Part shown: positions 30,046 to 62,746 of the stretch, in pieces
Position numbering within the stretch: the first letter of the stretch is position 1
How the letters are laid out: each line of letters begins with the position of its first letter
DNA from: Haliclystus octoradiatus
Taxonomy: Eukaryota > Cnidaria > Staurozoa > Stauromedusae > Haliclystidae
DNA: 64,000 nucleotides
Direction of reading: 5' to 3'
Assembly: GCA_916610825.1 (NCBI GenBank)
Contig: OU744449.1
Location: 20,987,344 to 21,051,343 of the forward strand
Notes under the pieces: model-generated
What the model was told of the DNA's origin: nothing
What the model saw: only the letters and a program-made list of their open reading frames with translations
Database searches by the model: none
Made by a program: the position numbers and the translations under genes

Positions 30046-30221
30046 TCAGACATGGTATCCGACAGTTTTAAAGCTATTGAGATGGCCTTTCATGCGAAGT
30101 AGTGAGATTCGTTCATGGTTGTGTTGAGCTGGTAGTTTGTCTACTTTGGCCAACATTTCAATAACAAAATCATCAATAATTCTACTGTCGAGATATTCCA
30201 GTCTCTCATTCACCAATTTTC
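30046..30221 (-). CDS. Gene A terminal exon: cytoplasmic tail and stop
   Basis: 176 nt, starting in phase 1 after TTGGATAG. It encodes KLVNERLEYLDSRIID, IEMLAKVDKLP and RISLLRMKGHLNSFKTVGYHV, with the stop at 30046-30048. It is charged and helix-prone, as expected for a cytosolic tail. The phase matches the TM3 exon across a 6.5-kb intron holding the second Gypsy element. Confidence 0.72.

Positions 30222-62746: not shown

Follow-up and report, generated by a model that had tools for sequence, protein, structure and literature searches.

Most classical glutamate receptors of animals are cation channels that excite the cell. GluR0 of Synechocystis carries the TXVGYG filter of K+ channels and has, to our knowledge, no adhesion ectodomain. 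Excerpts from one report describe GluR0 as having only two transmembrane domains and AvGluR1 of Adineta vaga as an animal receptor with a K+ signature filter and eukaryotic ionotropic glutamate receptor (iGluR) architecture (PMC12332018). Here we describe a gene of the stalked jellyfish Haliclystus octoradiatus located in a 64,000-nucleotide stretch of contig OU744449.1 (the window; C5:20987344-21051343). In this gene TSP1, SEA and FN3 modules replace the amino-terminal domain of an iGluR such as AvGluR1, which we compared by description only. Our preferred reading, which we consider reasonably probable, is that the gene encodes a subunit of a GluR0-type, K+-selective, inverted-pore cnidarian channel on an adhesion stalk of TSP1 repeats, a SEA domain and three FN3 domains.

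One exon chain from adhesion modules to channel core

The minus-strand chain 62746-30046 was rebuilt from the sequence and comprises 20 exons and 19 introns, all GT-AG and with agreeing phases, as a preliminary description of the locus had claimed; its 1278 residues contain no stop or frameshift (Table 1). Base 1 of codon 1 in the spliced model was set arbitrarily and belongs to an exon upstream of the window. Phase-1 introns join the TSP1 and FN3 modules, phases are mixed for the introns within SEA and within the core, and one intron splits a codon of the K+ filter, where TTVG ends the pore exon and YGDITP opens the next.

Pfam matched TSP_1 (6.8e-51, six stretches) and fn3 (4.4e-19, three stretches) in the spliced model, and Ion_trans_2 (1.9e-14), Lig_chan (1.5e-10) and Ion_trans (1.7e-9) in its core. 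Of the families expected from the preliminary description, TSP_1, fn3, Lig_chan and Ion_trans_2 were thus recovered, whereas SEA stayed under its cut-off. Scored singly, six of the seven TSP1 exons pass TSP_1; the fifth (52417-52247) fails and is matched by paralogue frames (E 2e-19, 3e-19, 2e-9 and 4e-13). FN3-1 and FN3-3 alone reach 24.3 and 22.9 bits, against an fn3 cut-off of 25. The 5' edge of TSP1-6 (51863) is uncertain, and its first ~20 residues are absent from the paralogues.

A SEA domain lies at the same place in a Stylophora protein, where it scores 18.4 bits and stays under the cut-off, and in a Dendronephthya protein, where it exceeds the cut-off with 32.2 bits. A profile of these two gave the window model 19.2 bits, compared to a maximum of 11.3 for 2000 shuffles. 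Comparison of SEA with sequences in the PDB gave weak matches: the best for the Stylophora domain was adhesion G-protein-coupled receptor (GPCR) F1 (E 1), and the four matches of the window domain included no SEA protein. As stated in the preliminary description, no LIVBP-like amino-terminal domain was matched by Pfam in the 810-residue ectodomain, the upstream part of the gene being seen incompletely.

Upstream, the gene extends into six further TSP1 frames at C5:21052696-21062029, near copies of TSP1-1 and TSP1-2 that are known from sequence match only, with splice sites unchecked. The ectodomain therefore probably holds more than seven TSP1 repeats; the domains and order first described stand, and the count of seven does not. 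No start codon or signal peptide for the gene was found in the window. A read-through end after M4, at a stop at 36721, was considered and is disfavored because three paralogues carry the C-terminal exon. The predicted cytoplasmic tail closes on (H/R)ERI(S/T)LLR(I/M)KG, conserved in copies A-D of the tandem array described below.

By all evidence short of a transcript, the window exons form one gene. The intron between FN3-3 and S1a was deduced from splice sites alone, and the chaining might in principle have misjoined two neighboring genes, one for an ectodomain and one for a channel. We rejected this reading as highly improbable: the same join occurs in Stylophora, Dendronephthya, Acropora and Clytia proteins, mostly gene predictions themselves, and in paralogues B, C and D. 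Moreover, the Stylophora pistillata protein LOC111347166 (P0137) aligns to the window model in a single 241-bit piece (model residues 345-1060) that runs from TSP1-7 through SEA, FN3 and the pore to M3, which answers the doubt about separate genes.

A K+-filter core with cnidarian relatives

The spliced core follows the layout of the iGluR superfamily, S1-M1-pore(TTVGYGDITP)-M3-S2-M4, an order also supported by the secondary structure of the predicted model of a relative. A core profile of 20 relatives, from which the window gene was left out and in which some rows include the CUB/Ig part, was searched against every open frame of the window and found five collinear core exons, all of them minus-strand (E values from 2.2e-22 to 0.0025, listed singly in Table 1; next match 0.23). 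Profiles of distant relatives missed exons S2a (unlisted), M4 (E 20) and the C-terminal exon (E 8.7), and these three calls therefore rest on paralogues B, C and D, in all of which they were recovered.

The K+-type TXVGYG filter is present as TTVGYGD, and TVGYGD is invariant in 61 aligned proteins. S1, not a voltage sensor, precedes M1; Ion_trans covers only positions 127-232 of the 241 of its profile, and no voltage-sensor segments were found before the pore. The predicted core of a relative folds as a clam-shell like those of GluR0, AMPA and NMDA receptors, and GluR0 is the best structural match of its modeled ligand-binding core. Together with the filter, this predicted fold bears out the glutamate-receptor-like core with a K+ filter that had been proposed at first. 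The M3 motif SYTANLAAF was not found; the gene has SILVGSIATALT instead. Two canonical receptors of the same genome (L001 and L005) have YTANLAAF in M3 and keep the ligand arginine (TIT..R and SIT..R).

In iGluRs an arginine of S1 binds the alpha-carboxylate of amino acids, and an acidic residue of S2 serves ligand binding. The canonical arginine is present in 27/27 bacterial rows at its column and in 0/34 cnidarian-type rows; nine of these 34 have R one column later, and a shift is possible in some corals. No arginine lies within four residues of the site in array copies 0 and A-D, aligned by eye. Since these five copies lack the canonical amino-acid-binding arginine, glutamate is an unsafe choice of ligand. 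At the S2 acidic column the 34 rows have D (28), N (3), E (1), Y (1) or a gap (1), and the array copies have D (DAILID or DAILLD).

Delta glutamate receptors act as organizers with little or no conduction, and the long ectodomain and the missing arginine could likewise indicate an adhesion or organizer protein that conducts little or nothing and whose working part is the ectodomain. We regard this as unlikely, because TTVGYGDITP is intact in copies 0 and A-D and the invariance of the filter among the aligned proteins is hard to explain in a non-conducting protein.

Database searches placed the core in a mainly cnidarian group. At E 0.001 or better the core matched 589 proteins, and among the 120 best that were listed, named cnidarian proteins came first, several with CUB and Ig ectodomains, followed by a brachiopod protein (Lingula) and numerous GluR0-like proteins of bacteria. 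Residues 403-1120 as query returned 21 proteins, led by Stylophora P0137 (9.8e-47), Dendronephthya P0138 (2.2e-45) and Acropora P0139 (4.5e-40); the remaining 18 were sidekick and other FN3 proteins with no channel family in their Pfam lists. With the core only, the long-protein search returned 16 proteins, with three CUB-type relatives ahead of ordinary K+ channels; P0137-P0139 were not among them. Relatives may be missing from these long-protein searches, since each scored ~8000 candidates, those sharing most words.

The linker TC-x-CP into S1 is shared by the window gene, P0137, P0138, P0139 and P0008. P0137 has the domain order EGF, F5/8C, EGF, TSP1, SEA, FN3 x3, S1, M1, pore, M3. It resembles the window gene from TSP1 onward, with RQGSVI in SEA and the linker GETCRCP, and differs in its single TSP1, in the EGF and F5/8 type C domains ahead, in a model cut in S2 and in being 25% identical. 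Dendronephthya gigantea LOC114517405 (P0138) shares SEA, FN3 (x5), a complete core and RQGSVI; unlike the window gene it has a fibrinogen C domain, and its TSP1-like motif was seen by eye without a Pfam match. Nematostella LOC5501882, Stylophora LOC111334188, Hydractinia LOC130641408 and Rhopilema LOC135695552 share the core, TVGYGD and a C-x-CP linker, but have CUB ectodomains and 720-796 residues, with Ig added in all except the Stylophora protein, whose Pfam list is CUB alone.

Judged from these predicted proteins, the gene is not alone in its architecture: TSP1/SEA/FN3 or CUB/Ig stand on the core in proteins of corals, an octocoral and Clytia, under database names that are mostly "uncharacterized". 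The search for the same architecture elsewhere that had been suggested at first thus succeeded, in P0137 and in tandem paralogues, and the statement that no receptor with this type of ectodomain was known has to be withdrawn at the level of database entries. The core is of a known kind; in the literature searched, judged by listings within one library, we found no description of an adhesion ectodomain on it or of a family on this scale.

In a tree that included the paralogues, the array genes formed a clade (100/100) on a long stem (1.31), within a group (92/88, which falls below the starred level) that also includes FN3- and CUB-type cnidarian proteins; its inner order was open, and the bacterial rows stood apart (100/100). 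Without the paralogues the window gene lay on a long branch (2.43) in no starred group, and its placement was unsure. The Lingula anatina protein LOC106154502 (P0023) has a K+-filter core without a recognized ectodomain, and the family may therefore predate the cnidarian-bilaterian split.

A tandem array under constraint

We searched the genome (261,861,806 bases, 33 contigs) and found exon series of the same order in copies 0, B, C and D, beside the window gene (copy A). Splice borders were sought within ten codons, and the phase of the window gene was imposed on every border. Borders were found for 20/20 exons of B, 20/20 of D and 19/20 of C, in which TSP1-6 lacks one. With the phase fixed in this way, the informative measure is exon length: 46 of the 59 exons of B, C and D are exactly as long as the window exon. 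TSP1-6 of B as cut contains a stop; we put the problems of this exon in B and C down to its uncertain 5' edge. Rows TSP1-3 to -5 (one exon reused) and the C-terminal row (a stop) of copy 0 were artefacts and were dropped.

SEA, FN3 and the core form one frame with no internal stop in each of copies A-D. Amino acid identity to the paralogues is 53-65% in TSP1-1 to -5, 63-69% in SEA and FN3 and 65-70% in the core. The corresponding ratios of nonsynonymous to synonymous differences per site (pN/pS) are 0.38-0.49, 0.28-0.38 and 0.31-0.34; they are rough, because synonymous sites are near saturation (synonymous divergence 0.96-1.89). By these measures the array genes arose from old duplications, have stayed intact and are constrained in all blocks tested.

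Two introns of the window gene contain reverse-transcriptase frames, as might be expected if this array copy had decayed into a pseudogene carrying two retroelement insertions. We consider decay very unlikely, given no stop in SEA, FN3 and core, the core pN/pS against three paralogues, and GT-AG kept at 19/19 introns. One set of these frames, on the plus strand, is flanked by near-identical 205-bp direct repeats (204/205) at 31385-36594, which identify a young element of the long-terminal-repeat type in the intron that separates M4 from the C-terminal exon. The other, an 815-residue open reading frame (ORF) at 57268-59715 (-; RVT_1 1.7e-10) in the intron from TSP1-2 to TSP1-3, adjoins long TAA-type repeats and a 500-N gap (59950-60449). 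Retrotransposon ORFs (reverse transcriptase, RNase H, integrase) also occur near the window start, at 800-4684 (+).

A genome search with the protein P0003 gave 93 matches, of which 35 start at query residues 181-188 and cover the filter and M3; seven of these 35 lie within 344 kb of C5, with small groups on C1, C7 and C10. Gene structure was read in the five array copies, the other filter+M3 matches being candidate loci, and the 35 matches suggest that K+-type receptors form a large family in this single genome. Insect ionotropic receptors, which sense small molecules, have expanded with loss of the canonical arginine. The tandem, expanded array without this arginine recalls them (sequences uncompared), and the family could be chemosensory, the clam-shell sensing a small molecule from water or prey and the ectodomain merely anchoring the receptor in the surface coat. 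We hold this for possible and clearly less probable than the preferred reading: the ectodomain, read in only five array copies of the 35 matches, is constrained nearly like the core.

Copies B and C have an unnamed ~150-residue domain upstream of the TSP1 repeats, preceded in B by a signal-peptide-like stretch seen by eye. Two ORFs of the window, 8316-8924 (-) and 11610-12134 (-), share this domain, which has no Pfam match; they are probably the N-terminal domain of array genes, in the 5' part of the next downstream copy. A fold model of the domain (8316-8924 with 11610-12134) had a pLDDT of 48.2 and was not used. A TSP1-like exon at 6948-7208 (-; PF22195, 7.3e-7) probably also belongs to downstream copy 0. 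Rfam (gathering threshold) and transfer RNA scans of the window gave no matches.

Table 1. Exons of the window gene, copies of the array and other loci. Plain positions refer to the window; C1, C5, C7 and C10 are contigs. Values are E values of Pfam, profile or paralogue matches.
Feature	Position	Strand	Evidence or remark
TSP1-1, first exon in the window, entered in phase 1, gene extends upstream	62594..62746	-	TSP_1 2.9e-9
TSP1-2	62002..62154	-	TSP_1 2.9e-10
TSP1-3	55466..55624	-	TSP_1 3.6e-7
TSP1-4	52855..53001	-	TSP_1 7.9e-12
TSP1-5, divergent	52247..52417	-	no Pfam TSP_1 match; conserved in paralogues
TSP1-6, 5' boundary uncertain	51615..51863	-	TSP_1 1.2e-13; paralogues
TSP1-7	50508..50681	-	TSP_1 6e-11
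SEA-a	50312..50418	-	splice chain, Pfam SEA, relatives' profile, paralogues
SEA-b, weakest	50153..50214	-	paralogue B match 0.02
SEA-c (QGSVIT at start) and FN3-1	48727..49184	-	fn3 3.7e-5, just under cut-off; paralogues 5e-58, 6e-58
FN3-2	47140..47430	-	fn3 1.6e-9
FN3-3	44449..44754	-	fn3 1.0e-4, below cut-off; paralogues
S1a, opening with conserved linker KTCSCP	43969..44202	-	relatives' profile 8.5e-9
S1b and M1	43054..43313	-	relatives' profile 1.6e-12
Pore helix, ending TMTTVG, codon split by intron	41875..41969	-	relatives' profile 2.5e-6
Filter (YGDITP) and M3	40328..40484	-	relatives' profile 2.2e-22
S2a	39002..39068	-	paralogues 2e-7, 5e-8
S2b, conserved acidic residue (DAILID)	38214..38464	-	relatives' profile 0.0025; paralogues
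M4	36744..36909	-	paralogues 1e-22
C-terminal exon with stop, conserved HERISLLR	30046..30221	-	paralogues 4e-13, 1e-14, 1e-8
Copy 0	C5:20954943-20986976	-	same-order exon series
Copy B	C5:21097044-21117129	-	same-order exon series
Copy C	C5:21141528-21182172	-	same-order exon series
Copy D	C5:21199080-21233361	+	same-order exon series
Tail-end exon, copy B	C5:21097044-21097250
Tail-end exon, copy C	C5:21141528-21141734
Tail-end exon, copy D	C5:21233143-21233361
Filter+M3 group (2)	C1 24.23-24.25 Mb
Filter+M3 group (5)	C7 22.07-22.15 Mb
Filter+M3 group (4)	C10 3.78-4.05 Mb

Proposed working and meaning of the family

The preferred reading, a K+-selective receptor channel on an adhesion stalk, is supported by the architecture, the single SEA-FN3-core frame in four copies, the conserved filter, the fold predicted for a relative and the purifying selection. 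Once expressed, four subunits would assemble through S1/S2 and M1-M4. The TSP1 repeats would hold matrix or a neighboring cell and so position the channel. The FN3 stalk, presumably facing outside, would be anchored by the cysteine-rich linker (TC-x-CP) to the clam-shell's upper lobe, in the position of the amino-terminal domain of classical receptors. Closure of the clam-shell, presumably on a ligand, would open the K+ pore and hyperpolarize the cell, which would make the signal inhibitory, and contact might be linked to gating. The combination suggests an inhibitory channel tied to adhesion.

Several points weigh against this reading. The gene is known from genomic sequence alone, and its K+ current is a prediction; for this species, excerpts from one paper give a published poly-A RNA-seq run (ERR9434978; PMC9975415). 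The model is partial, the 5' end of the gene lying outside the exons chained. No Pfam ligand-binding family matched S1 or S2 of the spliced model, and against PDB sequences the core matched Kv4 pores best, then TOK1, KCNQ and KcsA, with NMDA receptor GluN1 entries lower among the 60 matches listed. The core fold was modeled on a 25%-identical relative with 27 bacterial GluR0-like rows in the alignment, Pfam SEA scored 4.2e-4 (20.9 bits, under the cut-off of 26.4), and with the arginine absent the clam-shell may bind a ligand other than an amino acid or nothing. Finally, a total of 35 pore matches points to an expansion like that of chemoreceptors more than to an adhesion organ. The observation made in the preliminary description is confirmed, including its joining of ectodomain and channel in one gene, and its interpretation is partly supported, in the adhesion-type ectodomain and the receptor-type core with a K+ filter. 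That contact with matrix or a cell gates or positions the channel is a hypothesis, and a chemosensory or adhesion-only role fits almost as well.

According to excerpts from one paper, self-cleaving SEA sites are GSVVV- or GSIVA-like and lie in the loop that connects strand 2 to strand 3, and the halves of cleaved SEA-type domains hold together until parted by force (PMC6954182). GSVI is kept in SEA of all five array copies (GSVIT in A-D, GSVIA in copy 0), with GSVIS in P0137 and GSVIA in P0138; in the array it resembles the self-cleavage motif, and cleavage may occur there. A bolder version, which we regard as doubtful, is a self-clipping, adhesion-coupled inhibitory channel. Its SEA domain would cut itself at G/S on folding, the TSP1 part would be retained by non-covalent contacts, and force on TSP1 would gate the K+ pore, a pull or shear tugging or stripping the stalk above the clam-shell and so opening or closing it. 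If true, adhesion GPCRs, Notch and mucins would have a counterpart among ion channels, found as an array in a stalked jellyfish and also in corals.

The genes described here form a mainly cnidarian group that combines a bacterial-type K+ filter with the full animal layout, including M4, and in which adhesion modules in several combinations occupy the place of the classical amino-terminal domain. They offer a large natural set for asking how K+-channel and excitatory receptor forms diverged. They also raise two further questions: whether animals that lack a centralized nervous system rely on ligand-gated K+ channels for fast inhibition, and whether clipping and pulling, as in an adhesion GPCR, can act on an ion channel.
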